DNA of 64,000 nt from Bacteroidota bacterium (GTDB lineage: Bacteria > Bacteroidota > Bacteroidia > AKYH767-A > 2013-40CM-41-45), in NCBI GenBank assembly GCA_003389385.1, contig QQVM01000014.1, forward strand, positions 62,001 through 126,000, written 5' to 3'. This document shows, in pieces, positions 16,266-34,457 of the stretch. Each line of letters opens with the position of its first letter. The stretch's first letter is position 1. Made by a program: the position numbers and the translations under genes. A model generated the notes under the pieces. That model did no database searches. It worked only from the letters and a program-made list of their open reading frames with translations, and was not told the origin of the DNA.

Positions 16266-16311
16266 GTGTAGTGAAACTTGTTTTTACAGTTCTCTTATAC
16301 TTTTTTGTTTC

Positions 16312-16992
16312 TCAATCTCTTGCTTTTGTTACAAGTAGCTTTTTAGCAATTTCATTGCTGACAGCTAACTCATTTTTTGTTCCTTGCTTCAGTATAAGAA
16401 ATGAATTATCATACTCTTGTTTTTCCTTCACAGTGAACTGGCATCCCAATATCATTCCTGTACGAGTGAGATATCTTAGAAATTCTGCGGAATGGTCCGC
16501 CACACCTGTTATCAGGTACTTACCGTTGAGATTGCATGATGACATAGGAATCGCAGATGTGTTAGTGAAATTCCCGTTTGAATCCGGAATAGGATCTCCG
16601 TGCGGATCAAATTTTGGAAACTTGAGGTATGCGTCCAGTTTGTCAAACAGTTTCTCAGACCGGATGTGCTCTAGCTGCTCGGCAATTTCATGAACTTCAT
16701 CCCAGCTCAAACCAAGCTTTTCAACGAGAAAGTGTTCCCAGAGTCTGTGCTTCCTAATTACCATTACAGCCGTTTTTCTGCCACTGGGTGTAAGTGAGAC
16801 TCCCTGATATTTTTTATAAGAAATGAGTTTTTTATCCGAAAGTTTTCCAAGCATGTCTGTGACAGATGCGGGAGCAATGCCCATCATTTCTGAAATGGAT
16901 GATGTGCTGATTTTTCCTTCCGCTTTTTCATCAAGCTTGTAAATCACCTTGAGATAATTCTCCTCCGTCTGTGAGACTGATTTATTCTGCAT
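16312..16992 (-). CDS. DtxR/MntR-family metal-dependent repressor (copy 1)
   Basis: A 226-residue regulator with the three parts of the family: a winged helix (TEENYLKVIYKL ... ISEMMGIAPASVTDMLGKL), a metal-binding dimerisation domain (RKHRLWEHFLVEKLGL, EVHEIAEQLEHI, KFPKFDPHGDPIPD) and a C-terminal FeoA/SH3-like domain (TGMILGCQFTVKEK). Bound Mn2+ or Fe2+ lets such proteins repress uptake genes. It heads an operon with mntH, which favours manganese sensing. Its promoter contains a palindrome identical to that in front of copy 2, so self-repression is likely. It is clearly a paralogue of the protein at 18137-18808, with similar order of motifs and length. Confidence 0.9.
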   Translation of the reverse strand: MQNKSVSQTEENYLKVIYKLDEKAEGKISTSSISEMMGIAPASVTDMLGKLSDKKLISYKKYQGVSLTPSGRKTAVMVIRKHRLWEHFLVEKLGLSWDEVHEIAEQLEHIRSEKLFDKLDAYLKFPKFDPHGDPIPDSNGNFTNTSAIPMSSCNLNGKYLITGVADHSAEFLRYLTRTGMILGCQFTVKEKQEYDNSFLILKQGTKNELAVSNEIAKKLLVTKARD

Positions 16993-17003
16993 GAGGTAAT
17001 TAA

Positions 17004-17040
17004 TTTAGACAAATCTAAAAATATGTTTAGAATCTTCAAA
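17004..17040 (-). promoter_or_regulatory. dtxR1-mntH promoter with embedded DtxR-type operator
   Basis: Read leftward, TTTG (17040-17037) is followed after exactly 19 bases by TAGATTTG (17017-17010), a complete Bacteroidota promoter. The -7 element lies inside the palindrome TTTAGA-CAAA-TCTAAA at 17004-17019. A half site, TTTAGA, is present again at 17026-17031. A bound repressor would cover the -7 element. Confidence 0.75.
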
Positions 17041-17089
17041 ATAAACTGGATGTCTCAAGGTGTGGCTGATTTTTTATCTTTGAGCCAAG

Positions 17090-18151
17090 ATGGAAATTTA
17101 CAGACGGCTCATCAGGCCAATTCTTTTTTGGTTCAATCCTGAAACTGCTCATCATTTTGTGTTTTCAACTCTGAAGACTGCGTTTAAAATTCCTTTCATC
17201 AGAAAAATTTTGGCGTCAGTATATAAGAATGACGATCCTCGCCTGCATAAAAAAGTTTTTGGCCTTGATTTCCCAAACCCTGTGGGCCTTGCAGCGGGTT
17301 TTGATAAGGACGGAAAATACATTCAGGAACTTTCCGCTTTCGGATTCGGATTTATTGAAGTGGGTACTGTGACTCCACTTCCTCAGTCGGGCAACCCGAA
17401 GCCCAGAATGTTCCGACTTTTAAAGGATCATGCCCTGATAAATAGAATGGGTTTCAATAATGATGGAGTTCAGAATCTGAGTCGCAGATTGAAGCGAAAG
17501 AGGCCAGAGCGTTTAATCATTGGCGGGAATATTGGGAAAAATAAAGATACACCTAATGAAAATGCCGCCATGGATTATGAAAAATCTTTCAAAGAACTTT
17601 ACCATGTTGTAGACTATTTCGCGGTCAATGTCAGCTCACCAAATACACCCGGTCTGAGGTTTCTTCAGCAAAAAGAACCACTAAGGAAGATATTGCAAAA
17701 TCTGGTTGATCTGGGAAAGAAACTGTCTGCGCAAAGAGCCGGTGAAGAAGGCTACAGCAAGCCGATTTTGCTCAAAATCGCGCCCGATTTATCTGACGAT
17801 GAATTGAACGATATAGTGGAAGTGGTGATTTCTTGTGCTTTGTCTGGAGTAATCGCTACTAACACTACAGTGAACCGTGAGGGCTTGAAGACTGATAGTG
17901 AAGAATTAACTCAAATTGGAGCAGGAGGATTAAGCGGTTCCCCGCTTCGAGAAAGATCAACCGAAATTATCAAGAAGTTGAAGGAGAAATCAGGTGGTAA
18001 ATTTTCCATTATTGGTGCAGGAGGAATTCATTCTGCTGAAGATGCAATTGAAAAGTTGAATGCAGGTGCCGACCTGATTCAGGTATACACAGGTTTTATA
18101 TATGAAGGACCATCTCTGGTCGGAAAAATAAAAAAGTCACTTCTGTCTTGA
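17090..18151 (+). CDS. pyrD: Quinone-dependent dihydroorotate dehydrogenase (class 2)
   Basis: A 353-residue class 2 enzyme that oxidises dihydroorotate to orotate in pyrimidine synthesis and passes electrons to the membrane quinone pool. The N-terminal helical segment (YRRLIRPILFWFNPETAHHFVF) is the membrane-associated extension that marks class 2. The FMN barrel shows NPVGLAAGFDKDGK, GTVTPLPQSGNPKPR, the catalytic serine in NVSSPNTPGLR, and the phosphate-binding GAGGIHSAEDA. It stands alone between two DtxR genes; its last 15 bases overlap the end of convergent copy 2. A TATCTTTG element at 17075-17082 could be its -7 box, but I see no matching -33 element. Confidence 0.96.
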   Translation: MEIYRRLIRPILFWFNPETAHHFVFSTLKTAFKIPFIRKILASVYKNDDPRLHKKVFGLDFPNPVGLAAGFDKDGKYIQELSAFGFGFIEVGTVTPLPQSGNPKPRMFRLLKDHALINRMGFNNDGVQNLSRRLKRKRPERLIIGGNIGKNKDTPNENAAMDYEKSFKELYHVVDYFAVNVSSPNTPGLRFLQQKEPLRKILQNLVDLGKKLSAQRAGEEGYSKPILLKIAPDLSDDELNDIVEVVISCALSGVIATNTTVNREGLKTDSEELTQIGAGGLSGSPLRERSTEIIKKLKEKSGGKFSIIGAGGIHSAEDAIEKLNAGADLIQVYTGFIYEGPSLVGKIKKSLLS

Positions 18152-18808
18152 ATTCTGTTTTTTAACCAGCAAATTTCTGCTTGCTGCAGCACTTAAGGTA
18201 ATTTCTGTACCGCTATTAAGTATCAGTTTCATGCTCTGGTCGAAATCCTCCCGCTCCAGGATTTTAATCTGTGTGCCAAGGTTTAAATTGACTTTATTCA
18301 GGTATTTAAGAAATTCGTCTGAAGTATGTGTCACTGCCATTAGAACTACATTTTCTCCTGAAATACAATCATTTAAGTGCGTATAATTGTACCATTCGAT
18401 TATCCCGTTTTTATCAGGTATAGGGGAGCCGTGTGGATCAAATTTTGGAAAACCTAAAATCTCATCCATTTTATCAAAAAAAGCTTTGGACTGAATGTGC
18501 TCTACCTGCTCTGCAATTTCATGTACGTTTTCCCAGCCAAAGCCCATTTTCTCCACCAAATACATCTCTGTCAGCCTGTGCTTTCTTAAAATAAGAGCTG
18601 CTTCCTTCTTTCCTTTTTCAGTCAGTTCCAGGGGTTGGTAGCTTTTGTATTTTACAAGTTTTTTCTCGGCGAGCTTTTTCATCATGCTGTTAACACTTGG
18701 CATCTTGTTATTCAGATGCCTGCTCAGGCTCAATACTGTGACCTTGCCATTTTCCTGTGAAAGAAGAAATAGGGCTTTCAGGTAATTTTCTTCCGTGTGG
18801 GAATGCAT
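18137..18808 (-). CDS. DtxR/MntR-family metal-dependent repressor (copy 2)
   Basis: A 223-residue paralogue of the regulator at 16312-16992, with the same three domains: winged helix (TEENYLKALFLL ... HLNNKMPSVNSMMKKL), metal-binding domain (RKHRLTEMYLVEKMGFGWENVHEIAEQVEHI, FPKFDPHGSPIPD) and C-terminal SH3-like domain (NLNLGTQIKILERED). The residues around the recognition helix differ from copy 1 (NKMPSVNSM against GIAPASVTDM). It is divergent from a TonB receptor and shares a 90-base promoter region with it, so it probably represses that receptor and itself when metal is plentiful. Iron or manganese cannot be distinguished from sequence alone. Confidence 0.9.
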   Translation of the reverse strand: MHSHTEENYLKALFLLSQENGKVTVLSLSRHLNNKMPSVNSMMKKLAEKKLVKYKSYQPLELTEKGKKEAALILRKHRLTEMYLVEKMGFGWENVHEIAEQVEHIQSKAFFDKMDEILGFPKFDPHGSPIPDKNGIIEWYNYTHLNDCISGENVVLMAVTHTSDEFLKYLNKVNLNLGTQIKILEREDFDQSMKLILNSGTEITLSAAASRNLLVKKQNSRQK

Positions 18809-21159: not shown

Positions 21160-21834
21160 TTATTCTGCCTTTGCCTTAGGAGAAAGGTGTTTAAGCACTT
21201 TTGCTTCAAGATAAAAGATGATTTCTTCTGCAATGTTTTTCGCCTGATCACCTGTTCTCTCCAGTTTTCTTATTGCAGAAATTATATGCAAAGCCTGGCT
21301 GATTTTACCTGGATATTTGGTGATATATTCTTCCACAACTGAATTGGCTATTCCGTTGATTTCATCAAGTAAATTGTCCTTGTTAAACACGCCTCTTGCA
21401 AGTTTGGTGTCTTCGGCATCAAAGGCAGATTGTGTATCCTGCAGCATTTCTACAGCAGTACCGTACATTTCAACAAACCTTGTAATTTCAAGAAGTTCGT
21501 TGTCGTATGGCGCTTCAGTATCTACTACATACTTTGCTATTCCGTCTGCAATGTCTCCGATTCTTTCAAGATTTGAATTGATTTTCAAAACCGCAAGCAC
21601 AAACCTCAGGTCTATTGCTACCGGATTGAACAGAGCAAAAATGTTTTCGCAGTCTTTATCAATTTTGAGTTCAAGTGCATTCACACGCCTCTCGTTGAAA
21701 TTTACTTCCCTTGCAAGTGCTTTGTCAAACTTGAAAAGTGCTTTTCTGGCTTTGTCCAGCTGTGAAGTTACCAGTAAAAACATTTCAACTGTTTCGTCTT
21801 TCAGACGCTTTAGTTCTATATCGAGATGAGTCAT
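21160..21834 (-). CDS. phoU: Phosphate signalling protein PhoU
   Basis: A 224-residue all-helical PhoU protein, the usual length. It has two repeats, each with the metal-binding E/D-x-x-x-D pattern (for example NALELKIDKDCENIFAL and LERIGDIADGIAKYV; RTGDQAKNIAEEIIFYLE). PhoU links the Pst transporter to the phosphate sensor kinase and limits phosphate uptake. It is the last gene of the leftward phosphate locus, 46 bases after pstB. No PhoR-type histidine kinase gene is present in the window, so the signalling partner must be elsewhere. Confidence 0.94.
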   Translation of the reverse strand: MTHLDIELKRLKDETVEMFLLVTSQLDKARKALFKFDKALAREVNFNERRVNALELKIDKDCENIFALFNPVAIDLRFVLAVLKINSNLERIGDIADGIAKYVVDTEAPYDNELLEITRFVEMYGTAVEMLQDTQSAFDAEDTKLARGVFNKDNLLDEINGIANSVVEEYITKYPGKISQALHIISAIRKLERTGDQAKNIAEEIIFYLEAKVLKHLSPKAKAE

Positions 21835-21880
21835 GTGCTAATTTATTTATTTGAAGATATTAAATGTTTGGAATGAAATA

Positions 21881-22639
21881 TCATCCAAACCTTCCGGTTA
21901 CGTAATTCTGTGTTTGTACTTTATCTGGGTTTGTGAAAATCTTTGGAGTACTGTCAAATTCTATCAGTTCACCTAAATAAAAGAATGCTGTCTTATCACT
22001 TACACGACCAGCTTGTTGCATGTTGTGTGTAACAATAATGATTGTATATTTTTCTTTCAACTGATATATCAACTCCTCAATCTTGGCTGTTGAAATAGGG
22101 TCAAGGGCAGATGCAGGCTCATCCATTAAAATAACTGTAGGTTCAATTGCCAATGCCCTGGCAATACATAGTCTCTGCTGCTGTCCGCCCGAAAGTTCAA
22201 ACGCAGATTTCTTAAGCTTATCCTTGACTTCTTCCCATAGCGCTGCTTGCTTGAGTGAAGTTTCGACTCTTTCTTCAATAAATCCTTTGTGTTTAATTCC
22301 ATTTACACGTAGTCCGTATGCTATGTTTTCAAATATACTTTTTGGGAATGGATTCGGCTTTTGAAATACCATTCCTACTTTCTTTCTTAACTCATCAACA
22401 CGCATTCCCAATCCTTTTTTATAGATGTTCTTCCCGTCAAGCAGGATTTCCCCTTCAATCCTGACATTTGGTATGAGGTCATTCATTCTGTTGAAGAGCC
22501 TGAGATATGTTGATTTTCCGCAACCTGAAGGGCCAATTAAAGCTGTGACAGTGTTGATTTCAAAGTTCATGCTGATATTTTTCAGCGCTTGAAAATCTCC
22601 GTAATACAGATTTATATCTTTTGATTCTAACTTATACAT
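21881..22639 (-). CDS. pstB: Phosphate ABC transporter ATP-binding protein PstB
   Basis: A 252-residue ATPase that powers high-affinity phosphate import. Walker A ([14 protein letters not shown]), the Q-loop ([14 protein letters not shown], a PstB hallmark), the ABC signature ([15 protein letters not shown]), Walker B ([13 protein letters not shown]) and the switch histidine (IVTHNMQQA) are all intact. It follows pstA by 6 bases and precedes phoU, the standard order. Confidence 0.97.
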
Positions 22640-22645
22640 TTTTTA

Positions 22646-23503
22646 TCAGTTCATTTTAACTTTTTTACTGTAATATCTGCGCAGCATATTGGCTAATAAA
22701 TTCAGAATTAAAACTATAAGAACAAGAACAAGTGCCGTTCCATATGCCATGTCTCTTGATTCTTCGATTTTAGTGCCACTAGTTGAGATAACATAAAGGT
22801 GATAGGGCAGTGCCATCACTTGGTCAAAAATACTTTCCGGAAGCTTCGGTAAGAAGTATGCAGCTACTGTAAACAGAATCGGTGCTGTTTCACCGCTAAC
22901 CCTGCCAATTGAAAGAATCAGTCCGGTTATAATATTAGGCAGTGCAATTGGCAGAACAACTTTCCTCACTGTTTGCAATTTGGTTGCACCAAGAGCCAGA
23001 CTACCGTGCCTGAATGAATCATTGACGGCAAGCATTGCTTCTTCTGTTACCCTGATTACAACCGGCAAGCTCAATAAGCCCAATGTGAGTGAGCCGGCTA
23101 TTATGGAGTCGCCGAAATCCATGGCATTTACAAACAATGCCATCCCGAAAAGACCGAATACTATCGAAGGAATTCCGGCCAGATTATTAGTCATTAGTTT
23201 GATAAATCTCTTATACCAGGAATCTTTGGTGTATTCATGCATGTATATGCCTGCAAGTACTCCTATTGGAAATGCAAAGATCATGGATCCTGCAATTAAG
23301 CAAAGAGTTCCGATGATCGCCGGATAAATTCCGCCTTTGGTCATGCCGTCCTTTGGCATTTCAGTCAGAAATTCCCAGTTTAGCATATGCCATCCTCTAA
23401 TGAATATAAATTCAAGAATCCAAAACAAGATTGCCAACACAAAAAAACTTAGTATCCTGAATACCCAAAAAGCTAGCTTTTCCTTGTTACTCTTCGATAG
23501 CAT
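22646..23503 (-). CDS. pstA: Phosphate ABC transporter permease PstA
   Basis: A 285-residue inner-membrane permease with six predicted helices. The cytoplasmic coupling motif that docks PstB is visible in SLALGATKLQTVRKVVLPIALPNIITGLILSIGR (EAA loop, A-L-G-A pattern). The N-terminal periplasmic stretch is short and normal for the family, unlike its partner PstC. It is packed between pstC and pstB with 6-base gaps. Confidence 0.96.
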   Translation of the reverse strand: MLSKSNKEKLAFWVFRILSFFVLAILFWILEFIFIRGWHMLNWEFLTEMPKDGMTKGGIYPAIIGTLCLIAGSMIFAFPIGVLAGIYMHEYTKDSWYKRFIKLMTNNLAGIPSIVFGLFGMALFVNAMDFGDSIIAGSLTLGLLSLPVVIRVTEEAMLAVNDSFRHGSLALGATKLQTVRKVVLPIALPNIITGLILSIGRVSGETAPILFTVAAYFLPKLPESIFDQVMALPYHLYVISTSGTKIEESRDMAYGTALVLVLIVLILNLLANMLRRYYSKKVKMN

Positions 23504-23509
23504 GTGTTC

Positions 23510-24715
23510 TTACTTTTTTAATTTTTTTCTAGAGGCTATAAATTGAATATAAATATTTATCAGAAGAGTCATGATGAACAGAATGCAACCAAGGGCAAAT
23601 AATGCTTTGTAATGAATACCTCCCTGGGGTGCTTCGCCTAATTCAGCTGCAATTGTAGCAGGTATTGTTCTGACCGGTTGTAATAGGGATGTAGGAATTA
23701 CTGCAGCATTTCCTGTTACCATCAAAACAGCCATAGTTTCACCGATTGCCCTTCCGATGCCCAAGATGGCAGCTGCTGTGATTCCAGACATAGAATAAGG
23801 CAGGATCACACGTGAGATTGTTTGCCAATGATTTGCACCTAGAGCGAGCGATGCTTCCTTCATACTTCTCGGTGTATTCCGTATGGCATCTTCAGAAACT
23901 GTAATGATAGTAGGAAGTGCCATTATTGATAGCACAATTGCCCCTGCTAATGCGGTTTCTCCTACAGGAAGGTTGAACCAGTCATGAATCATAGGAACAA
24001 TGGTGATCAATCCAAAGAATCCGTACACAACTGATGGTATTCCCGCCAGCAGTTCAATTACCGGCTTGAGGATTTTCTGAAGTTTGGGATTGGCTATCTC
24101 AGCTAGATAGATTGCCGTTGCAATTCCAATAGGTAATGCAAAAATGATTGCAAACAAAGATACTACCAGGGTGCCCATTATTAATGGAAGTACACCAAGT
24201 TGAACAGCTGGTTCAGAAGTAGGATACCATTCCTTTCCAGTAAGAAATTCGCTCAATTTAATATTATCAACATGAACCAATTTTCCCTTGAATTGGCCTG
24301 ATAGATATGCCTCCGGAAATACCGCAAGAATATTCGGAATGCTGTCTATTAAAAAGCTGATCTTTTCAGGAAGAAATTCAAAATCAGATCCGAGTTCTTC
24401 TTCAGAAAAATAATCTCCAAGATTGTTTATAGTAAAAGTAAGTATTTCAGCATCATTGCCTCCAAGATCTTTCCAGCTTGTAATTTCCTGATCAAAAATA
24501 TTTTTTATTTGCTCCGCATCCAGTTGCGAAACAGGATTACCGGTGTTAACGGCAATCACATTGTGATGTTCTATAGGAGATGATTTGAATAAAGTAAATC
24601 CTTCCCTGAATAGAAAGACTACAATCAATAAAACGGCAAAACTTGTGACAGTACCACTGATCATCAGCAATCCCTCCACGAGTTTTTCCGAAAAACGGTT
24701 TAGTACTTTTCTCAA
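23510..24715 (-). CDS. pstC: Phosphate ABC transporter permease PstC with a PstS-like insert
   Basis: A 401-residue permease, about 100 longer than typical PstC. Membrane helix 1 (about residues 18-37, FREGF) is followed by an insert of about 110 residues before the normal family sequence resumes at KLSEFLTGKEWYP. The insert (about 50-98) reads like a piece of PstS: VNTGNPVSQLDAEQIKNIF, then SWKDLGGND, matching VNNSNKVSQLTREQIEGIY and NWKEVGGED in the PstS next door. The phosphate-binding S-S-G-T element is missing from the insert (TINNLGDYF instead). The permease core and its EAA loop (ASLALGANHWQTISRVILPY) are intact. The start is TTG; no upstream ATG is in frame, and the basic N-terminus fits. 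The insert should face the periplasm. Confidence 0.93.
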   Translation of the reverse strand: MRKVLNRFSEKLVEGLLMISGTVTSFAVLLIVVFLFREGFTLFKSSPIEHHNVIAVNTGNPVSQLDAEQIKNIFDQEITSWKDLGGNDAEILTFTINNLGDYFSEEELGSDFEFLPEKISFLIDSIPNILAVFPEAYLSGQFKGKLVHVDNIKLSEFLTGKEWYPTSEPAVQLGVLPLIMGTLVVSLFAIIFALPIGIATAIYLAEIANPKLQKILKPVIELLAGIPSVVYGFFGLITIVPMIHDWFNLPVGETALAGAIVLSIMALPTIITVSEDAIRNTPRSMKEASLALGANHWQTISRVILPYSMSGITAAAILGIGRAIGETMAVLMVTGNAAVIPTSLLQPVRTIPATIAAELGEAPQGGIHYKALFALGCILFIMTLLINIYIQFIASRKKLKK

Positions 24716-24729
24716 AATTTAATACTATA

Positions 24730-24751
24730 ATTTAATTAACATTAATGTAAC
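24730..24751 (-). promoter_or_regulatory. Weak Pho-box-like element before pstC
   Basis: Read leftward: GTTACA, five bases, GTTAAT, then TAAAT, giving the same 11-bp spacing as the stronger elements at 27075, 29972 and 31809. It matches their consensus less well, the region is very AT-rich, and it lies only 14 bases before the TTG start, so it may be chance. Confidence 0.3.
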
Positions 24752-24814
24752 ATACTTGCAGCGGACAAACAAATTGGCTGCAAATTATAAATTTATAGCC
24801 AATTTTACCTAAGG

Positions 24815-25633
24815 TTATTTGACTGGAATATAACCTACTTTCGAAACGAAGTCCTGACCTTCTGCAGATAAAATAAAATTTACAAATGGCATAACTTGCT
24901 TTTCCTTGGCTGTAGGATAGTAATAAAACAATGGCCTTACAACAGGGTAGCTTTTGTTCTTTGCATTTTCTAAGCTTGGACTAACGAAGGTTTTTCCTTT
25001 ATCATAAGAAACTGATAGCGCTTTTACTTCTTTGTTAAGATATGCCAATCCAACATAACCAATCGCTCCTTTAGTCTGGCTGATCGATTGAATAATAGCT
25101 CCTGTGGCAGGCATACTCAATACATTCGATGCATAATTTTTTCTGGCCATCACCTGATCCTTGAAAAACTCATAGGTTCCTGAACTGGACTCTCTGGAGT
25201 AAATAACGATTACCATATCTTCACCGCCTACTTCCTTCCAGTTTTTAATCTTGCCGGTATAGATGCCTTCAATTTGTTCACGAGTAAGTTGAGAAACTTT
25301 ATTGGAATTATTAACAATAACTGCAAGAGCGTCATTGGCAACTATCACTTCTTTGTATGCTCTGCCAGCATCCTGCATCTTCAGTCTCTCATCCATTTTA
25401 ATTTTCCTGGAAGACATTGCGATATCTGTAGTATTATCCATGAGGGCTGCAATTCCAACACCGCTTCCTCCTCCTACAACAGTGACGGAAGAACCGGCAT
25501 TTTTCTTCATATAACTTTCTGCAACTTTTTGTGTAAGTGGCAATACGGTATCACTTCCTTTGACTGATATCTTTTGTGCGTAAAGTACAACAGATATACT
25601 AGCTGCAATTAATGTCAAGATTACTTTTTTCAT
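24815..25633 (-). CDS. pstS: Periplasmic phosphate-binding protein PstS (copy 1)
   Basis: A 272-residue protein with a cleavable signal peptide (MKKVILTLIAASISVVLYAQ) and no lipobox cysteine, so it should be soluble in the periplasm. The phosphate-binding elements are present: KGSDTVLPL, GGGSGVGIAALM, DIAMSSRKI and SRESSSGTYEFF. It delivers phosphate to PstCA. It follows the porin gene by 31 bases and precedes pstC by 99 bases. The lipoprotein copy at 31915-32778 is close in sequence across its whole length (for example MPATGAI with VQSISQT or IQSISQT, then GAIGYVGLAY or GAIGYIGLAY). Confidence 0.96.
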   Translation of the reverse strand: MKKVILTLIAASISVVLYAQKISVKGSDTVLPLTQKVAESYMKKNAGSSVTVVGGGSGVGIAALMDNTTDIAMSSRKIKMDERLKMQDAGRAYKEVIVANDALAVIVNNSNKVSQLTREQIEGIYTGKIKNWKEVGGEDMVIVIYSRESSSGTYEFFKDQVMARKNYASNVLSMPATGAIIQSISQTKGAIGYVGLAYLNKEVKALSVSYDKGKTFVSPSLENAKNKSYPVVRPLFYYYPTAKEKQVMPFVNFILSAEGQDFVSKVGYIPVK

Positions 25634-25664
25634 GATTTATCTTTTTCTGATTTTAATTTATAGA

Positions 25665-27005
25665 CTATATTTTTACCTGAAGTCTGAGCGTAATCACATT
25701 ATCATCCAGATCTTTCATATAAGTTGGACGTGTGCTTGCATCAGGTATGTTCCTTGATGTTTCATTTTTTACCATGTCATAATACAAGGTAATTCTGACA
25801 TTTGAGTCCCAGCGGTAAATCATGCCGAATCCCCATGTGTCGTATCTGATATCTGCAATGCCGGTGCTCTTTGTTCCATTGGCGGCCGAAATTCCTATTT
25901 CATCCTTAGATACTTCAGTATTTGGATCATACCAGTCGTATTTAACTACAAGCTGCAAAGGCGATGCGCCTAGATTCTGAAGGAAGTAAAAATATGCTCC
26001 GTTAAATTTTCTTTTGTATATGTTAGAAGTTACTGCAGCCCTAGGACTTGAAGTTGAAGATGAAGTTCCTGCCTGTTCTCCTTGAATATATTCAGCTCTC
26101 ACCGTTGTAATGCCAGGCTTCCAGTCAATGCTGAACTGTCCATCAACTCCTGTATACTTCCTTTCAGCATAATGGCCTTTGAAGGAATTTTGCTCAATCA
26201 TAAAAGTCTTGTTTCCGTTTGCATCCTTTGAAATAGCATACAATGTATCGTTATCGGCTCTGAAGCCTCCATTATACACGGATGCTCCAACACCGTATTT
26301 AATTTTTTCTGAAGCAGATGATTTGTTAGCTGAAATTCTTCCTATGAAGTCTTTTTTCTTGTCAAAGTCGGTCGCGTCTGCATTGAAAGATGGTGCGCCG
26401 GTACCATTGAATAATCCTCCTTCAGCTCTAAGCCAGTTCCAGTTGCTTGTCTTTGAACCCTGGATTGCAAGGCTGGCCCCTAAATCACGCTCACCCGGGA
26501 ACAGAATTTGCGACATTCGTCCTCTTTCTGGGGATTCACGTTGGCTTGAACTGTATCCAATCTCATTGCCGAATGGTCTGTCAAACATACCTGCCTTGAG
26601 TTGAATCCAACCACTCCATTTATCCGTCAAGAGCATATATGCATCTTTAATTCCAACTCCTCGTTCTGTTACATCAACTTGCAATACGTATTGGGATGTG
26701 GAAATTCCCTTATCATTTGCAGGTGAATTGTAAGTAAGTTTCAATCTTCCCCTTCTTACTGCAATTCTCTTATCCACTCCTGGCCTAAAGTCTCCACTTG
26801 CAAATGAAGCTTGTCCTGCTGAATCTGCAACTTGGAATTGTGTTTGGATGTAACCTGAAAACTTAAACCTGTTAAGAGCATCTATCTTGGAATTAATGCC
26901 TGCAACATTGCTTGCCAGTGTGTCAAACGGATTCAGTTCAGGTTCCTGTGCTTTCAGGTTTATTGTAAATAGTACAAAAATAAGTATGAAGGATTTCAGT
27001 TGCAT
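25665..27005 (-). CDS. Outer-membrane porin of the OprP/OprO (phosphate-selective porin) type
   Basis: A 446-residue beta-barrel. The ATG at 27005 begins a good signal peptide (MQLKSFILIFVLFTINLKAQ); the frame stays open 22 codons further up without signal features. After a short helical stretch (ASNVAGINSKIDALNRF) that may form a trimerising coiled coil, the barrel has the family patterns FSGYIQTQFQ, RRGRLKLTY, GWIQLKAGMFDRPFGNEIGYSS and VRAEYIQGEQ, ending in a strand (VITLRLQVKI). Porins of this type pass phosphate or polyphosphate across the outer membrane. Its place directly before pstS, with a Pho-box-like element upstream, supports that role here. Confidence 0.87.
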   Translation of the reverse strand: MQLKSFILIFVLFTINLKAQEPELNPFDTLASNVAGINSKIDALNRFKFSGYIQTQFQVADSAGQASFASGDFRPGVDKRIAVRRGRLKLTYNSPANDKGISTSQYVLQVDVTERGVGIKDAYMLLTDKWSGWIQLKAGMFDRPFGNEIGYSSSQRESPERGRMSQILFPGERDLGASLAIQGSKTSNWNWLRAEGGLFNGTGAPSFNADATDFDKKKDFIGRISANKSSASEKIKYGVGASVYNGGFRADNDTLYAISKDANGNKTFMIEQNSFKGHYAERKYTGVDGQFSIDWKPGITTVRAEYIQGEQAGTSSSTSSPRAAVTSNIYKRKFNGAYFYFLQNLGASPLQLVVKYDWYDPNTEVSKDEIGISAANGTKSTGIADIRYDTWGFGMIYRWDSNVRITLYYDMVKNETSRNIPDASTRPTYMKDLDDNVITLRLQVKI

Positions 27006-27074
27006 ATTTGCTGGATTTGTAGCAAAGAAAGTTCCCCTATGTTTCTTTACTATTCCCTCAATGTTAAGCAAATA

Positions 27075-27097
27075 TTAAATGTAAACTTAGTCTTAAC
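27075..27097 (-). promoter_or_regulatory. Pho-box-like element before the porin gene
   Basis: Read leftward: GTTAAG, five bases (ACTAA), GTTTAC, then ATTTAA. The hexamers are 11 bp apart, as in PhoB-bound direct repeats. It starts 70 bases before the porin ATG. Confidence 0.5.
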
Positions 27098-27115
27098 TAA
27101 TTGTAAAATTGAAGG

Positions 27116-29938
27116 CTAGAAACGATAAGATACAGATAATGAATAGTTAACCCCATTCTTATGCTCTGAAATGCCATTATCCACATCGGCTGCGTAGCGT
27201 CCGTTTTGATTTTGATCCTGGTAAAATAGTCCAGGTTCGTTCAATAAATCATTTATTGCTAATTTAATAAATCCACTCTCAAAGATCCTTTTCCCGATTT
27301 GAAGGTCAATGAGATTTCGAGGAGCTTCATCAATGCTCAGGTAACCGGAATTTCCAACCTGGAAAATTCTTTTCCCAATCCTGTTATATAGAATGTTAAT
27401 TTCAAAACCACTCTTAGGACTGGAGTAGGAGATGCCTGAATTAATCAGGTATGGTGACTGGCCTTGCATTGGTCTTTTATCTTCATCTCTCAGATCATTG
27501 CTCTTGTCAACTTCTGACTTTATTAAAGCTACATTCCCGAAAACACTCATGTTTTCCCATTTTGCCCATGAGAGAAGGTTATCCATGAATTCTAATTTTT
27601 TTCTCCATTCAAATTCAATTCCATAGAGAAAAGAGCTTTCCGCATTCTGGTAACTCACTCTTCTTGACCCTGCTCCAGAACTTTCAATATATGGTTCAAT
27701 TGGATTCACAAATTCCTTATAGAATAATGATGCAGTAAATATCTGTGAATGGCTCGGGAAAATTTCATACCGCAGATCATAATTATATATTTCGGTTCGT
27801 TTCAGATCGGGGTTTCCTTCAACAGTTGTGGCAGTGCTGAAATCATAATACGAAAACGGAGCTAACTCCCTGAACTCAGGACGTGCAGTGGTTTTGGATA
27901 CAGCAAAACGAATATTTGATTTTTGAGTTAAGGAATATACAGCGTTTAACGATGGAAGGATATCTGCATATTCTGTATTAACATCAATTGTGTCGTTGCT
28001 GTATCCAAATGAGTTGAGTCTTTGATTAAAATTTTCAATTCTTACACCCCAAATTAATTTGACTTTTTCTGAAACTGAATTTTCAAACTTGACAAATGCC
28101 GAACTTAAATCTGAACTTGCGTCATACTGATCTGAAGGATTCGTGATTTCATCCAGGCGAAATCCATTCTTACCAATATTGGAAGGATTAAATATTGAAT
28201 CTATCGGTTGCAACAATAAGTTCCAATTGAATTTACCTGGATTAGTTACTATGTATCCAAGTACCCTCGCGTTAAATGATCTTTCTTTGTATTGTTTCTG
28301 TCCTCCGATTTTGATCCTTTGTGATTTTTCTCCCAGCTGGAATGGAATTTCAAAGTTAATATCAGCATTATAGGTTTGTTCGCTCAAATCAGAGTAAAAT
28401 CTGCCTGCATAATTCGGAGATGCGTTTCCAAATGGAACATAAGCATAAAGTGTAGTATCCTCAGTGTTGATGTCAGCATTTCTGTAATAATACATCCTTC
28501 GTAGATTAGGCACAGACTGAAAAGTATTTGTCAGTCCGGCATTCCATTTGAGAGATACTTTCTTTTCGGAAACAATATGTTTTCCTGAAATAATTGAATT
28601 TAAAAATCCTGTCGATGTATATTTCAGGGAACTTGCCTGAATGTATTGCAGGTTTTCAATATCAGTTCCGTTCCGTGTTATAACCTGATCATCTGAATTA
28701 ACGCTGAAAAGATTCTTTATGCTGATGCTGTGATCTTTTTCTGGTTCATATGAAAGATTCAAAAGCCCTCCCCAGAAAATATTTTCTTTGTATTGGCTGT
28801 CTTCAAAATTGTATTTCTTTGAACCGTCAAAATCATAGTCCGCTCTTCTGATCTCAGTCTTTTTATTACTTATGGAATAACTGAGAGCTCCAATTATCCC
28901 AGCATCACCCCTATTGATATTAAATTTCTTTCCACTGGAAATTTGATAGGATTGACTCAGGGGGGAAGACTCTTTTTCATGGGTTCCCCAATCATTACTG
29001 TAAATTTTGGAATATTCGATTTTCTGAGTTTGATTGGACTTTTTAAAGTCTATTGTTTCTGGAAAATCCGACGGTACCGCTCTAGTACCGTCATCCAGCC
29101 CAAGCCAGTCTGTTCCGCCTCCTTCATATGTAGTGTATTTCTTAAATGTACTGAATGAATTGAATCCTGTGCCTGCCTGAAAGCTGAAAAAATTCATATC
29201 AGGAATGTCTTTTGTTGCAATCTGTAGTATGCCTCCTGCAAAATCTCCGGGTAAATCCGGACTTGCCGTTTTAACAATGACGATATTATCAAGTAAGGAA
29301 GAGGGGATAAGATCAAATGAAAAAGCTTTTCTGTCAGGCTCAGTACTAGCAAGCGGAAATTCATTCAACGTTGCAACATTATAGCGTTCATTCAGACCTC
29401 TGATTACAACAAACCTTCCTTCCTGCAAACTTGCCCCGCTTATTCTTCTTACAACTTCTCCGGTATTCTTGTCTGATGATTTCTTTATTGATTCAGAAGA
29501 AATTCCATCCTGAACGGTAGCACTCAATTTCTGCATTAATATCACTGAACCAATATTTTCGCGCTTCATAGAGGCTTCTATAACAACCTCCTTCAACACC
29601 TGTTGGTTTTCTTCAAGCATAAAGTTCAATACTAATTCCTTGTCTGTTGCAATTGAAATATGAGGAATGACCATTTTCTGATAACCGATGTAACTAACAA
29701 CTACAGAATGTTTGCCTTCTGGAATATTTTCAATTCTGTAATTGCCATCCAAATCGGATACAGTGCCTAAGCCCAGACCTTCAATCAGAATAGGAACTCC
29801 AATCAATGTTTCATTGGAATTTTTATCTGTTACTTTTCCGTAAAGTACGCCAAACCCTTGAGTATTAAGACCTGCAAATGATGCTGAGAATTGACTGAAA
29901 AAATATGTAATGAACATGAGTAATTGTGCGAGCTTCAT
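27116..29938 (-). CDS. Large TonB-dependent receptor of the phosphate locus
   Basis: A 940-residue receptor with a signal peptide, a carboxypeptidase-regulatory-like domain (YGKVTDKNSNETLIGVPI ... GKHSVVVSYIGY), a TonB-box region (LKEVVIEASM), a plug (KNTGEVVRRISGASLQEGRF, VIRGLNERYNVATLNEFPL, DLPGDFAGGILQIATKD) and a long barrel ending VSYRF. It is not of the SusC type and no SusD partner is present. Instead the gene just upstream on the same strand encodes a T9SS-secreted protein. A Pho-box-like element lies 34 bases before its start. The cargo is unknown; the neighbours suggest phosphate or an organophosphorus compound. Confidence 0.88.
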   Translation of the reverse strand: MKLAQLLMFITYFFSQFSASFAGLNTQGFGVLYGKVTDKNSNETLIGVPILIEGLGLGTVSDLDGNYRIENIPEGKHSVVVSYIGYQKMVIPHISIATDKELVLNFMLEENQQVLKEVVIEASMKRENIGSVILMQKLSATVQDGISSESIKKSSDKNTGEVVRRISGASLQEGRFVVIRGLNERYNVATLNEFPLASTEPDRKAFSFDLIPSSLLDNIVIVKTASPDLPGDFAGGILQIATKDIPDMNFFSFQAGTGFNSFSTFKKYTTYEGGGTDWLGLDDGTRAVPSDFPETIDFKKSNQTQKIEYSKIYSNDWGTHEKESSPLSQSYQISSGKKFNINRGDAGIIGALSYSISNKKTEIRRADYDFDGSKKYNFEDSQYKENIFWGGLLNLSYEPEKDHSISIKNLFSVNSDDQVITRNGTDIENLQYIQASSLKYTSTGFLNSIISGKHIVSEKKVSLKWNAGLTNTFQSVPNLRRMYYYRNADINTEDTTLYAYVPFGNASPNYAGRFYSDLSEQTYNADINFEIPFQLGEKSQRIKIGGQKQYKERSFNARVLGYIVTNPGKFNWNLLLQPIDSIFNPSNIGKNGFRLDEITNPSDQYDASSDLSSAFVKFENSVSEKVKLIWGVRIENFNQRLNSFGYSNDTIDVNTEYADILPSLNAVYSLTQKSNIRFAVSKTTARPEFRELAPFSYYDFSTATTVEGNPDLKRTEIYNYDLRYEIFPSHSQIFTASLFYKEFVNPIEPYIESSGAGSRRVSYQNAESSFLYGIEFEWRKKLEFMDNLLSWAKWENMSVFGNVALIKSEVDKSNDLRDEDKRPMQGQSPYLINSGISYSSPKSGFEINILYNRIGKRIFQVGNSGYLSIDEAPRNLIDLQIGKRIFESGFIKLAINDLLNEPGLFYQDQNQNGRYAADVDNGISEHKNGVNYSLSVSYRF

Positions 29939-29971
29939 GAATTTGATTTTGCAATAAAAATATCTTGTTTA

Positions 29972-29994
29972 TTTAAAGTTTACCTTATGTCAAC
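29972..29994 (-). promoter_or_regulatory. Pho-box-like element before the TonB receptor gene
   Basis: Read leftward: GTTGAC, five bases (ATAAG), GTAAAC, then TTTAAA. A further GTTAAC abuts it at 29995-30000. The layout is the same as at 31809-31831 and 27075-27097. Confidence 0.55.
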
Positions 29995-30081
29995 GTTAAC
30001 AAAGCATTAAAAAACCAGGAATAGTTTCAAAGAAGTTAAAACATCTGAATATAGGTGTTGCATCAATATGTGAAATAAAAT

Positions 30082-30109
30082 GGAAGCCACCCTTTACGAA
30101 TGGCTTCCG
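30082..30109 (-). terminator. Hairpin, probable terminator of the T9SS gene
   Basis: GGAAGCCA (30082-30089) pairs with TGGCTTCC (30101-30108) around an 11-base loop. Read leftward the stem is followed by ATTTTATTTC, a T-rich but not perfect tail. It lies 31 bases after the stop of the leftward gene. Confidence 0.6.
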
Positions 30110-30139
30110 AATATTCAATCTAAATGAAAAAATGAGGAC

Positions 30140-31741
30140 TTAATGTATAATTAGTCGGTTTACGAATTTTCCTGAATCATTGCTTACTGAAATAGTATAA
30201 ATACCTGGACTCACTCCATCGAGATTTATATTTATAATCTGTTCTCCTTTACTTAAAGTTTCATTGTTAAAAGTTCTCACTAAATTACCTGAAAGGTCCA
30301 TAATCTTCACACTAAAAGTACCGGTCCTTTCTTCGTTAAAGGAAATTGTAGTTTGGCTTCTGGCAGGATTTGGATAAACATGAATATTAGAATTGTTCTT
30401 AATACTATTTACTGAGGTGATGATGTAATCAGTGTTCTGGCAATCAAAGTTTGTCCAACCCTGTGTCCAGTCGTTACTTCCGATTGCTCCGGAGAATGTC
30501 ACCACATCAAAGAATGGATTATTTAGGAGAGTAGATGTGAAGGCTGCACTATTCAATACTGGACTTCCGGTAAGTGGCGTAAAATCCGGAGTATTGTAAT
30601 TGAATGGATTTGTTAGCATCAGGTCAGTTGTAGATGGAAGAATGGAATTGCCATAAGAAGGTTGGTTGAACCAAGCGCTGATATCCCAGGTTGAACCACT
30701 TGAAACCGACAGTGGAGTTGTACAACCGGCAATAATGTTATTCTGAAACTGAAGTTGGTTGTTTGTGGCTGCTGATTCTGTATTAGCTCCGTCAATGAGC
30801 AAACCAGTTGGAAATCCGGAAAACACAGAGTTGAATATTGAAGTCTTCGCGCTTCTTCTTAAATGTGCAGCTCTTTTATAGTTACTATTAATCACGGTTC
30901 CTGCATTCTTCATAGGACCTATAAGAGTAACGTTACTGTAGACAGGATATGTAATAGGGTTATTCAAAGATCCTGTTGCATCATTGTCTGATTCAAAACC
31001 GTTGGAACCTGATATATCAGCAACGTTAGAATCCCTTATTGAAATCAGAAATTGATTTTTACCATTATATCCAAAATCTGTATCAAAATCATCATCTAAC
31101 CCTCGGTAAGCTATGATGTGCTTAAGATTCACAGTCCCTCCAAAACATTCAAATGAATCATCTCCTGAGTAACTTACCATTACATAGTCAACTATGGTTC
31201 CACTGCCCACACCGCCAAGAGTGAGTCCGTTAATTTCATTGTTTGGCATAAATGCAATACCGGGGAATTCGATTCTTACATAGCGTAGTATTCCCGAATT
31301 ATCACCGGGATTTGTTCCGCCATAGAGTCCTTTACTGGCATCTACGCCACCCTCTATGACTTTTTCACCAGCGGGATCGTTGATAGGAGCAAATCCGCAT
31401 ATTATAAGTCCACCCCAGTCACCGTAACTTCTCAGCCCTGCCGGTTCATTGGATGTAAATACAATTGGACGGGTTACTGATCCGTCAGCCCAGATTTTTG
31501 ACCCTCTGGTGATTATCAGACTTCCTTTGGTTGCTTTATCACCCTTGATAATCGTGCCTTCCTGAATTGTTAATTCAGCATTATTCGTTACATAAACAAA
31601 TCCGATCAAAAGATATATATTATTGTTTGTCCAGGTGGTATTACTTGAAATGTCTCCTGATACAGTGATTACATTTTGAGCGTTTGACTTAATAATAAAA
31701 AGGCAGCTTGCTGCCAGGATTAGTAGTAGGAATTTTTTCAT
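30140..31741 (-). CDS. T9SS-secreted protein of the phosphate locus, beta-helix-like
   Basis: A 533-residue exported protein. It has a signal peptide (MKKFLLLILAASCLFIIKSNAQ), then a body with repeated short strands (AELTIQEGTIIKGD, SLIITRGSKIWADG, YVRIEFPG, YVMVSYSGDDSFECFGG) typical of parallel beta-helix folds. An acidic loop, RGLDDDFDTDFGYNG, could bind calcium. The last 85 residues are a type A T9SS domain (VYPNPARSQTTISF ... GVSPGIYTISV), so it should be surface-exposed or released. It lies between the lipoprotein PstS and the large TonB receptor, with a Pho-box-like element upstream. I infer that it works with the receptor, perhaps in capture of a phosphorus source. No catalytic phosphatase motif is visible. 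Confidence 0.82.
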   Translation of the reverse strand: MKKFLLLILAASCLFIIKSNAQNVITVSGDISSNTTWTNNNIYLLIGFVYVTNNAELTIQEGTIIKGDKATKGSLIITRGSKIWADGSVTRPIVFTSNEPAGLRSYGDWGGLIICGFAPINDPAGEKVIEGGVDASKGLYGGTNPGDNSGILRYVRIEFPGIAFMPNNEINGLTLGGVGSGTIVDYVMVSYSGDDSFECFGGTVNLKHIIAYRGLDDDFDTDFGYNGKNQFLISIRDSNVADISGSNGFESDNDATGSLNNPITYPVYSNVTLIGPMKNAGTVINSNYKRAAHLRRSAKTSIFNSVFSGFPTGLLIDGANTESAATNNQLQFQNNIIAGCTTPLSVSSGSTWDISAWFNQPSYGNSILPSTTDLMLTNPFNYNTPDFTPLTGSPVLNSAAFTSTLLNNPFFDVVTFSGAIGSNDWTQGWTNFDCQNTDYIITSVNSIKNNSNIHVYPNPARSQTTISFNEERTGTFSVKIMDLSGNLVRTFNNETLSKGEQIININLDGVSPGIYTISVSNDSGKFVNRLIIH

Positions 31742-31808
31742 GATTTTATTGAATTTGTTTGTGCAAGATTACTTGACACTGATTAATCCAATATGAACTT
31801 CAACCTAA

Positions 31809-31831
31809 TTTAAAGTTATCCAATTGTAAAC
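31809..31831 (-). promoter_or_regulatory. Pho-box-like element before the T9SS gene
   Basis: Read leftward: GTTTAC, five bases (AATTG), GATAAC, then TTTAAA. It begins 68 bases before the T9SS start codon. A direct repeat AATATGAAC (31790-31798 and 31834-31842, 44 bp apart) flanks it. Confidence 0.55.
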
Positions 31832-31854
31832 TTAATATGAACATAGTAGAAAGG

Positions 31855-31883
31855 AAATAAAAAACCACCACGGGAATTCCATG
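31855..31883 (-). terminator. Terminator after pstS copy 2
   Basis: ACCACCA pairs with TGGTGGT around a GC-containing loop with a further partial match; read leftward it is followed by a run of six T. It separates the pstS2 transcript from the T9SS gene, which therefore needs its own promoter. Confidence 0.82.
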
Positions 31884-31914
31884 GTGGTTTTCAGTAATTG
31901 GAATGTTATAGGAA

Positions 31915-32778
31915 TTATGATGTTTGTAACGGTACATATCCGACTTCTCTCACAAGCGATTGACCTTCATCAGATTTCATGTAATCAAAAAATGGTGCAT
32001 ACTTTTCAAGTAATTTAGTTTCAAAATAAAAATACAATGGTCTAGAAATCGGGTAAGATTTGTCTCTTGCTGAATCAATAGAAGGCATAACAAATGTCTT
32101 GCCCTGATCATATGATATCTTCAATGGCTTGACATCTTTGGTGTCATAAGCCAATCCTATGTAACCAATTGCTCCTTCGGTTTGACTTATAGATTGCACA
32201 ATTGCTCCGGTTGCCGGCATTAAGAGCGCTTTATTTCCAAAATTCTTTTTATTGAGCACATGATCCCTGAAGAATTCATAGGTACCTGAACTGGTTTCGC
32301 GGGAGTAATAAATAATTTTCAGGTCTTTTCCTCCTACATCTTTCCAGTTACTTATCTTTCCGGTGAAAATTTCCTCTAGTTGTTCTCTTGTAAGCTCTGA
32401 TACTGGATTACTATTATGAACAACTACTGAAAGTGCATCATTGGCAATAATCAATTCCGTTACTTCCTTATTCATTTTGGATAATTTAATTTTTTCATCT
32501 GCTTTTATAGGTCGGGAAGACATAGCTATATCTGTAGTTCCATCCATTAATGCTGCAATACCAACACCTGAGCCTCCTCCAATAATCGTCACATTAGCAC
32601 CTGGGTTGTTTTTCATGTAAACTTCTGCAAACTTCTGCGCAAGGGGAAGAACCGTGTCTGACCCCTTAATGAGTACAGAAAGTTTTGATTGATTGTCGGA
32701 GTTTTTATTTTTGTCTTTACTTCCTCCACAGGATATTATAAACAAACTGATAAATAAAGTGAAGATTGATTTTGTCAT
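31915..32778 (-). CDS. pstS: Phosphate-binding lipoprotein PstS (copy 2)
   Basis: A 287-residue PstS with a lipoprotein signal (MTKSIFTLFISLFIISCGGS; Cys17) and a short Lys/Asn/Ser-rich linker. It keeps the phosphate-binding elements KGSDTVLPL, GGGSGVGIAALM, DIAMSSRPI and SRETSSGTYEFF. Copy 1 is soluble, so the two copies probably work at different places: a membrane-anchored one and a free periplasmic one serving the same PstCAB. It follows the winged-helix regulator by 54 bases and ends at a strong terminator. Confidence 0.95.
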   Translation of the reverse strand: MTKSIFTLFISLFIISCGGSKDKNKNSDNQSKLSVLIKGSDTVLPLAQKFAEVYMKNNPGANVTIIGGGSGVGIAALMDGTTDIAMSSRPIKADEKIKLSKMNKEVTELIIANDALSVVVHNSNPVSELTREQLEEIFTGKISNWKDVGGKDLKIIYYSRETSSGTYEFFRDHVLNKKNFGNKALLMPATGAIVQSISQTEGAIGYIGLAYDTKDVKPLKISYDQGKTFVMPSIDSARDKSYPISRPLYFYFETKLLEKYAPFFDYMKSDEGQSLVREVGYVPLQTS

Positions 32779-32832: not shown

Positions 32833-33525
32833 TTAGTTTTCAAATACATTTAGCATGTATCCTATACCTTTTTTTGTAACGATGAGATTGTGGCCCATTT
32901 TTTTTCTAATTCTCCTGATATGAACATCTAGGGTTCTATTTTCAAATTCGCTTGTTTTATTCCAGACTTTATTAAACAATTCTTCTCTTCGGAAAACTTT
33001 TCCTTTTCTGCTTGCAAGCAGTTGAATTAGTTCAAATTCTTTCCTTGAGAGCGGAATATTTTTATTATCAATTGAAGCTGTGTAGTTGTCTCTATCCAGA
33101 TATAAGATACTCTCATTCTTTTCGTTGGATTTAATGGCAATTCTTTCTGAATTGATTCGTGGACTAATTTCATCCATTATGCTATTCAGGAGTTCAACTG
33201 GCCTTAAAGGTTTGTAAAAGATGTTATCTATATAAATTGCTTCCGAAGGACTTTCAATTTTTTCTTGACTAATATTTCTAATGATAATAATCCGTGTTTT
33301 TCTGGTATATGGATTTGACTTAATCTGCTTGCAAATATCGAAACTACCATTCCTGTCTGAATTTTGAAAAAGAAAAATAAGATTGGCATTGAGGCGCAGT
33401 ATATTTAAAGGATTGATTTCATTGTCGGCCAAATAATTTACAAATACCAATTCTGATCTAAGCAGAGGGAGTATTATTTTAAAGTCATCTCTGAGTGTGG
33501 AAGATACAAGGATGTTTTTTACCAT
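32833..33525 (-). CDS. Winged-helix response regulator with a degenerate receiver domain (PhoB-like)
   Basis: A 230-residue OmpR/PhoB-type regulator. The C-terminal DNA-binding domain is normal (LSRKEFELIQLLASRKGKVFRREELF, NRTLDVHIRRIRKKMG, KKGIGYML). The N-terminal receiver has lost its chemistry: the acidic pair after strand 1 is S8-S9, the phospho-acceptor aspartate is F53 (LIFLFQNSD), and the switch Thr/Ser is R83; only the strand-5 lysine K105 (FYKPLRP) remains. It should not be phosphorylated in the usual way. It lies 9 bases after a canonical stand-alone receiver gene and just before pstS, so it is the best candidate for the PhoB role, perhaps activated through that neighbour. Confidence 0.88.
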   Translation of the reverse strand: MVKNILVSSTLRDDFKIILPLLRSELVFVNYLADNEINPLNILRLNANLIFLFQNSDRNGSFDICKQIKSNPYTRKTRIIIIRNISQEKIESPSEAIYIDNIFYKPLRPVELLNSIMDEISPRINSERIAIKSNEKNESILYLDRDNYTASIDNKNIPLSRKEFELIQLLASRKGKVFRREELFNKVWNKTSEFENRTLDVHIRRIRKKMGHNLIVTKKGIGYMLNVFEN

Positions 33526-33534
33526 GTAAAATAA

Positions 33535-33912
33535 TTAATGAAGAGCCTCATTCACCATACTGATCAAGGTGGAAGGTCGGATGGGTTTTGTTACAAAATG
33601 ATTTCCACCTACATTCATGGCAGTTATGCTTGTGAATTCATCTGAATCAGCTGTAAGAAACATGATAGGAATATCTTTAAGGATAGGATCATTCTTCAGA
33701 TGAATACATGTCTCAATTCCTGAAATATCCGGCATCCTTACATCTAGGATTATTAAGCTTGGCTTGTGTATTCTAGCCATTTTAATGCATTGGATACCAC
33801 TAAAAGCTTTCAGAACTTTATAATCATTGTTCTTCAGATTGTAACTGACAATTTCAACGATGTCTGGTTCATCATCAACTACCAATATCGTATGCCTGAT
33901 TTTGTATTCCAT
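33535..33912 (-). CDS. Stand-alone receiver-domain protein (CheY-like)
   Basis: A 125-residue single receiver domain with no output domain. All active-site residues are present: D13-D14 (LVVDDEPD), phospho-acceptor D57 (LIILDVRMPD), T87 (MFLTADSD) and K109 (FVTKPIRP). A histidine kinase elsewhere should phosphorylate it. It is the first gene of the leftward phosphate locus and is followed after 9 bases by a DNA-binding regulator whose own receiver is dead. The two together contain exactly the parts of one normal PhoB. It could alternatively be a phosphate sink for the kinase. Confidence 0.9.
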   Translation of the reverse strand: MEYKIRHTILVVDDEPDIVEIVSYNLKNNDYKVLKAFSGIQCIKMARIHKPSLIILDVRMPDISGIETCIHLKNDPILKDIPIMFLTADSDEFTSITAMNVGGNHFVTKPIRPSTLISMVNEALH

Positions 33913-34457
33913 GTTCGATTTATTACAATTTTAACAGGTTTGTATAAGCTGAATAATAACTCATTATGAATTTATTGTTAAATGTTTCACTGGTATAGTA
34001 TTACTTTTTAATAATAATTGATGAGGTAATCTTTTTTCTTAAAACTAAATGAATTTTCATCTTTAACGCTCTGCATACGTTCAATTAGAGATTCAATAAA
34101 ATGAAACTTGCAATTTGGTTCTTTGACGAAAACCAAGTCTGTGTTCTTGTTTTGTACGGCTTCTCCTGAAACGATCAGCAGCTATGAATTTTTTAAAATG
34201 GAACAAATAAAGGAACACTGGAACTCTGATCTGCAGACATTTTTTTCTAAGTTATTTCACATCGGTTTTTGCTTTCTAGATTTATCTAATATTTCAGTTC
34301 TTTCAGTTTTTAGGCGCATAGATTGCTGACCATGATTGTATGGTTATCTTAAATACAAACTATCATAGTTTTTACTGGTAAAAACAATATTCGATGTTGA
34401 GAAATTATAATCTCAGTATTAAACATTTATTAAAATCAATGTATTTTCGAGATTCAA
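33913..34457. other. 545-bp divergent intergenic region
   Basis: AT-rich gap between the leftward phosphate locus and rightward mltG. It must contain the promoter of the receiver gene. I see no convincing Pho-box-like element, riboswitch or RNA gene. A 73-codon open frame at 34108-34329 has no signal, domain or ribosome site that I can recognise and is not called. Confidence 0.5.

Follow-up and report, generated by a model that had tools for sequence, protein, structure and literature searches.

Two adjacent genes in the window (the whole 64-kb stretch of DNA analysed here) encode a stand-alone PhoB-type receiver, REC1, and a PhoB-like regulator, RR2, in which an intact winged helix is joined to a receiver that lacks the residues for phosphotransfer. 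The pair heads a phosphate locus (Table 1) and is common to several related genomes. With a probability of roughly 0.55, we propose that REC1 and RR2 constitute an auxiliary Pho module in which REC1 would be a substrate of PhoR, RR2 would bind Pho boxes independently of phosphorylation and the output would be set by expression. As the genome also keeps a normal PhoBR, this module is an extra one.

Table 1. Features of the REC1-RR2 phosphate locus (window coordinates)
Feature	Position	Strand	Description
Candidate PhoB-type box upstream of REC1	33943..33981	-	overlapping TTNANA repeats per 11 bp, ~30-70 bp from REC1; window ranks 3 and 4
REC1, stand-alone PhoB-type receiver	33535..33912	-	125 aa; D13, D14, D57, T87 and K109 all present
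RR2, PhoB-like regulator with pseudo-receiver and intact winged helix	32833..33525	-	230 aa
PstS2, second phosphate-binding protein	31915..32778	-	directly after RR2; PBP_like_2 161.5 bits; orthologue in relative G001 65% identical
Candidate PhoB-type boxes upstream of the 533-aa T9SS-sorted protein	31814..31852	-	window ranks 5 and 7
Secreted 533-aa protein with T9SS C-terminal sorting domain	30140..31741	-	conserved in locus
TonB-dependent receptor	27116..29938	-	conserved in locus
Candidate PhoB-type boxes upstream of porin	27051..27107	-	window ranks 1 and 2
Phosphate-porin-like (OprP-type) outer membrane protein	25665..27071	-	named by context; conserved next to pst in relatives
PstS1	24815..25633	-	conserved beside pstCAB
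PstC	23510..24715	-	conserved in relatives
PstA	22646..23503	-	conserved in relatives
PstB	21881..22639	-	conserved in relatives
PhoU	21160..21834	-	conserved in relatives

The REC1-RR2 pair and its genomic setting

REC1 consists of a receiver only (93.9 bits against Response_reg, PF00072, in Pfam) and carries the complete DD-D-T-K set of single-domain receivers; the sequence-only reading of this DNA had described all five residues as intact, and both the alignment and the Pfam match agree. RR2 is located downstream on the same minus strand after a gap of 9 bases. The normal winged helix ascribed to it is borne out by the score against Trans_reg_C (PF00486; 82.5 bits, cut-off 26.2), which identifies an OmpR/PhoB-type domain, and by retention of RT-DVHI..R and of the T.KG.GY wing. 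No PF00072 match was found in a Pfam search of the RR2 protein. The RR2 receiver had also been called dead, and rightly so: the acidic pair is replaced by serine or threonine (S8-S9 or, when aligned differently, S9-T10), the acceptor position is F53 and the switch threonine position is R83, such that the acidic pair, acceptor aspartate and Thr/Ser of a phosphorylatable receiver are all missing. The conserved lysine is kept as K105, which the earlier description had omitted.

In an AlphaFold2 model of RR2 (mean pLDDT 81, 8 sequences), residues 1-120 are receiver-like with a shortened helix alpha4 (H93-96), and the winged helix is normal. The PDB matches of this model are all OmpR/PhoB regulators, including atypical ones (GlnR and HP1043-type entries). 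As modelled, RR2 fits the definition of a pseudo-receiver protein, or atypical response regulator, in having a receiver fold without phosphotransfer residues (PMC12632262). A search with RR2 in a collection of genome contigs returned distant regulators from other phyla only. In-frame read-through from REC1 into RR2 would leave a linker of approximately 4 residues, and two receivers could probably not pack face to face across so short a connection.

The genes from PstS2 to PhoU follow the pair on the same strand (21160-32778), and no kinase gene is present at this locus. The two PstS genes differ from each other and are positioned one at each end (31915-32778 and 24815-25633), with the first directly behind REC1-RR2. 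The porin gene has no Pfam match and, instead of the TTG at 27071, probably uses an ATG near 27005 as its start. Upstream of REC1, bp 34008-34210 (minus strand) contain the remnant of a small gene with an in-frame stop (tblastn E-value 2e-7 to G001), and this gene (112-133 aa) lies between mltG and REC1 or phoR in the relatives G001, G002, G003, G006 and G009. Elsewhere in the window (14373-18808), two DtxR/MntR-type regulators lie near an mntH-like transporter, and this region is syntenic beside pst in several relatives.

Six OmpR-type winged-helix genes were identified in the window genome. A contig other than that of the window carries a full-length, intact PhoB (G000:C5:121792-122490, 234-aa frame) followed by a PhoR-type kinase. 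Close relatives of this PhoB occur in 50 of the 61 genomes examined, and its orthologues (most of them approximately 55-65% identical) adjoin pst in G003 of the same family as well as in G020, G025, G037, G052 and others. In G003, which does not have the REC1-RR2 pair, phoBR is located between the porin-pst genes and mltG, roughly the position that REC1-RR2 occupies in other family members. As a complete PhoB-PhoR is present, the earlier proposal that the usual PhoB is split over two genes is rejected for the window genome; a division of PhoB-like proteins into receiver-only and winged-helix-only genes does, however, exist in G015 and G056 of other families. A separate complete PhoB in control of the locus had been named as evidence against that proposal. 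The gene for such a protein exists, and we infer from the shared Pho boxes that its product acts on the window locus.

Conservation in the family and recurrence across the class

A DNA pattern search for the REC1-specific stretch GG-x-HF-[I/V]-TKPIRP was positive for 7 of the 11 family genomes and for 0 of the 31 other genomes of the order. In all seven, RR2 directly follows REC1 in the same direction, often overlapping it (in G002, the contig ends inside this copy). The pst-phoU operon comes next in the window genome and in G001, G006 and G009, so that the search for this pair beside pst genes in other genomes, suggested on the basis of the sequence alone, found it conserved, co-directional and Pho-linked; the short contig of G007 carries the pair without any neighbouring phosphate gene. 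These occurrences, together with those in other families described below, rule out a species oddity or an assembly error.

The five receiver residues are retained in 6/6 complete REC1 orthologues, and the truncated seventh keeps every one that is visible. In contrast, the acidic pair is retained in 0/6 aligned family RR2s, although the acceptor aspartate (D57) is retained in 5/6; degeneracy is strongest in the window RR2. Because the REC1 residues are kept, the RR2 acidic pair is always lost and the genes are adjacent each time, the pairing is not attributable to chance. Mean pairwise identities among five family genomes were 63% for REC1, 29.5% for the RR2 receiver and 55.5% for the RR2 winged helix, compared to 77% for the PhoB receiver and 73% for the PhoB winged helix. 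The window RR2 is the most divergent of the orthologues (19% identity for the receiver and 48% for the winged helix), with its recognition helix kept. These sequence comparisons show that REC1 is strongly constrained as a receiver, and that the RR2 receiver has decayed while the winged helix alone is well conserved. The orthologues with D57 may possibly retain some phosphorylation response in the relatives or use this aspartate structurally.

Our survey covered 296 genomes of the class and fetched gene neighbourhoods. REC1-type stand-alone receivers were seen in several further families, and 21 stand-alone receivers, REC1 included, form one monophyletic clade relative to PhoB receivers (100/99.9); as we read the gene maps, 18 of these are near pst, phoBR, TonB/T9SS genes, sixA or ppk. 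The G162 partner is a winged-helix protein with a dead receiver, and porin and pst genes come next, as in the window. The partner in its congener G056 is a winged helix without a receiver, and the two winged helices are sisters (100/98) in a tree that was aimed at a shared origin of RR2 and the receiver-less proteins and that has few columns and long outgroup branches. In G015, receiver-only and winged-helix-only genes are found inside the pst operon. REC1-type receivers beside pst or phoBR without an RR2-like partner nearby are present in G169 (where the receiver alone heads the pst operon), G013, G061 and G326. Conversely, winged-helix-only PhoB-like genes without an adjacent receiver are carried by G019, G022, G027, G024, G121 and G004 (twice), and the N-termini of the proteins from G121, G022 and G027 resemble a receiver stub. 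Judging from these sequences, receiver loss recurs across lineages, and in some the decayed receiver is gone altogether. The module is uncommon, as most surveyed genomes carry full-length PhoB only.

In G103, a PhoB paralogue with a damaged receiver (L209:7963-8643) is convergent with a stand-alone receiver approximately 40 bp away. More PhoB paralogues with partly damaged receivers are found in G008 (L138:11899-12582) and G109 (L217:5136-5846); in these three genomes the acidic pair of the paralogue is DT or AS and the acceptor is D, E or H. Degenerate stand-alone receivers also exist (L138:7430-7822 in G008 and L208:928-1353 in G238); these are 60% identical to each other and directly follow an intact stand-alone receiver. 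The two winged-helix-only genes of G004 (L133:3112-3420 and L143:7884-8231, encoding 102 and 115 aa) are near-identical, one being just after sixA-, ppk- and ppx-like genes and the other near a full PhoB.

Pho boxes and possible modes of action

TTNACA-like repeats with 11-bp spacing are found upstream of the phosphate genes. A weight matrix for these boxes was built from five other family genomes, with the seed consensus picked by eye and the window sequences included in that choice. Of its seven best positions in the 64-kb window, two each are upstream of the porin, REC1 and the 533-aa protein, and the remaining one is upstream of the decayed small gene that precedes REC1 and that still has a PhoB-type box at 34406-34433. 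Four relatives were scanned in leave-one-genome-out fashion, and the REC1 upstream site came out at ranks 1, 4, 3 and 2. Because the box upstream of REC1 ranks high both in the window and in the relatives, the pair is very probably Pho-controlled; the pst-phoU context and the Pho box together are those of a Pho regulon member.

Receivers in two-component systems dock to the kinase through helix alpha1. This helix of REC1 is 50% identical to that of the PhoB from the same genome (56-72% in three relatives), compared to 33% for the next best receiver examined in the window genome and 6-17% for RR2 in three relatives. Because its alpha1 helix is PhoB-like, REC1 is predicted to be a PhoR substrate.

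In the proposed auxiliary module, PhoR would phosphorylate both PhoB and REC1. RR2 would bind Pho-type repeats unphosphorylated, and its activity would therefore be set by the amount made. This protein would be produced once the REC1 Pho box is switched on and would serve as a feed-forward or feedback modulator of Pho genes, while REC1, as a second PhoR substrate, would tune or compete for phosphoryl flow; alternatively, REC1 might signal in trans, with RR2, PhoB or a further protein as the recipient. The two genes are packed tightly and often overlap, which would tie the doses of their products. Control of pseudo-receivers by expression is among the mechanisms discussed previously (PMC12632262). 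Counting against our preferred reading are the D57 kept in five of the six aligned RR2s, the choice of the seed consensus by eye, and the adjacency and frequent overlap of REC1 and RR2, which suggest closer joint work than a shared operon requires.

Such joint work might take the form of a two-subunit regulator, with phosphorylated REC1 binding the receiver face or the winged helix of RR2 to switch DNA binding on or off. The gene order in 7/7 family genomes, the pairs found in other families, where the receiver of the partner is dead (G162) or missing (G056, G015), and the receiver heterodimers CenR-EssR, BldM-WhiI and CmrR-CmrT all speak for this explanation, which we nevertheless consider unlikely. 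Because the G056 and G015 partners have no receiver, receiver-receiver contact is not the general mechanism, and the REC1-type receivers without a nearby partner (G169, G013, G061 and G326) also count against it. The dimer surface bears on this question as well. D101 and R115 (E. coli numbering), which we take to form the salt bridge of the PhoB alpha4-beta5-alpha5 dimer, show little or no variation among 22 PhoBs, but are mostly replaced by H/Q and M/I/L in the REC1s (H101 and M115 in the window). Most RR2s keep both residues, whereas the window RR2 has N101 and S115. The conserved interface residues are thus missing from both window partners, which is compatible with the use of another interface, and the shortened alpha4 helix of the RR2 model is a further point against this mechanism. 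RR2 orthologues with D101 and R115 appear to fit RR2 homodimers better than REC1-RR2 dimers. A REC1-RR2 heterodimer, as first suggested for this pair, is possible in the window genome.

If RR2 were functionally separate and merely co-transcribed, REC1 might serve PhoR as a phosphoryl sink or shuttle, or be a partner in a phosphorelay. The solitary members of the REC1 clade beside pst or phoBR in the same four genomes would suit such a role, as would the resemblance of the REC1 alpha1 helix to that of PhoB; however, the REC1-RR2 order is kept in every family genome with the pair, even in G007 where phosphate genes are not adjacent, and we regard this explanation as distinctly improbable. It is also conceivable, although highly improbable, that RR2 is on its way to becoming a pseudogene and that this strain currently makes no use of the pair. 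The exceptional divergence of the window RR2 and the decay of the small gene upstream fit this scenario, but the RR2 frame is open over 230 codons, the winged helix retains its similarity to the orthologues along with the recognition helix, REC1 is intact and the Pho box is kept.

Relation to known regulators

ChxR, GlnR and HP1043 are phosphorylation-independent OmpR/PhoB regulators that function as stand-alone homodimers. Like RR2, they combine a receiver that is not used for phosphorylation with an intact winged helix; RR2 differs from them in that a separate gene supplies an intact receiver as its partner and in that its own receiver is eroding.

Bacteroidota PhoB-PhoR systems have an active receiver and DNA-binding domain in one protein with the kinase adjacent, whereas the window locus has a separate receiver and a regulator whose receiver is dead and lacks a kinase gene, the complete PhoB-PhoR of this genome being encoded elsewhere. 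The phoBR operon of Flavobacterium johnsoniae, found with OprP, a TonB-dependent transporter and induced lipoproteins (PMC8115612), encodes a regulator of the same family and has neighbours similar to those in the window (porin, TonB-dependent receptor and secreted protein). The CmrR-CmrS-CmrT system of Clostridioides difficile likewise brings together in one operon the genes for a protein with an intact receiver and for an OmpR-family regulator with a pseudo-receiver, and CmrR and the pseudo-receiver CmrT interact in pull-downs (PMC12548384). However, CmrR has its own DNA-binding domain and the kinase CmrS is encoded in the operon, while REC1 is a receiver only and has no kinase beside it. 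Cooperation between atypical or non-cognate regulators is also seen in the BldM-WhiI receiver heterodimer (PMC4125116) and in CenR-EssR, which heterodimerize via their REC domains (PMC10746171). The REC1-RR2 interaction is putative, and BldM, WhiI, CenR and EssR, unlike REC1, all carry DNA-binding domains; partners such as these are not co-transcribed (PMC12548384).

There is thus precedent for regulators with a pseudo-receiver, for receivers that stand alone and for heterodimers of receivers. Our literature search found no published case in which a live stand-alone receiver is repeatedly paired, in a Pho context, with a PhoB-like protein whose receiver is dead or absent while an intact PhoB is kept alongside. 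A broader possibility, which we offer tentatively and regard as somewhat unlikely, is that several lineages of the class have divided one regulator into a phosphorylated receiver that signals in trans and a subunit that binds DNA and has a dead or stubby receiver or none; used beside a normal PhoB, the two would bring the phosphate genes under a second level of control. The way in which pseudo-receivers are regulated is not yet settled (PMC12632262). The genomes surveyed here provide a natural series that runs from full PhoB, through a dead receiver with a separate live receiver and a receiver stub, to the winged helix alone, with many of these beside phosphate genes. This series makes the fate of a regulator after the death of its receiver, and the takeover of that role by a separate receiver, directly testable in one system.
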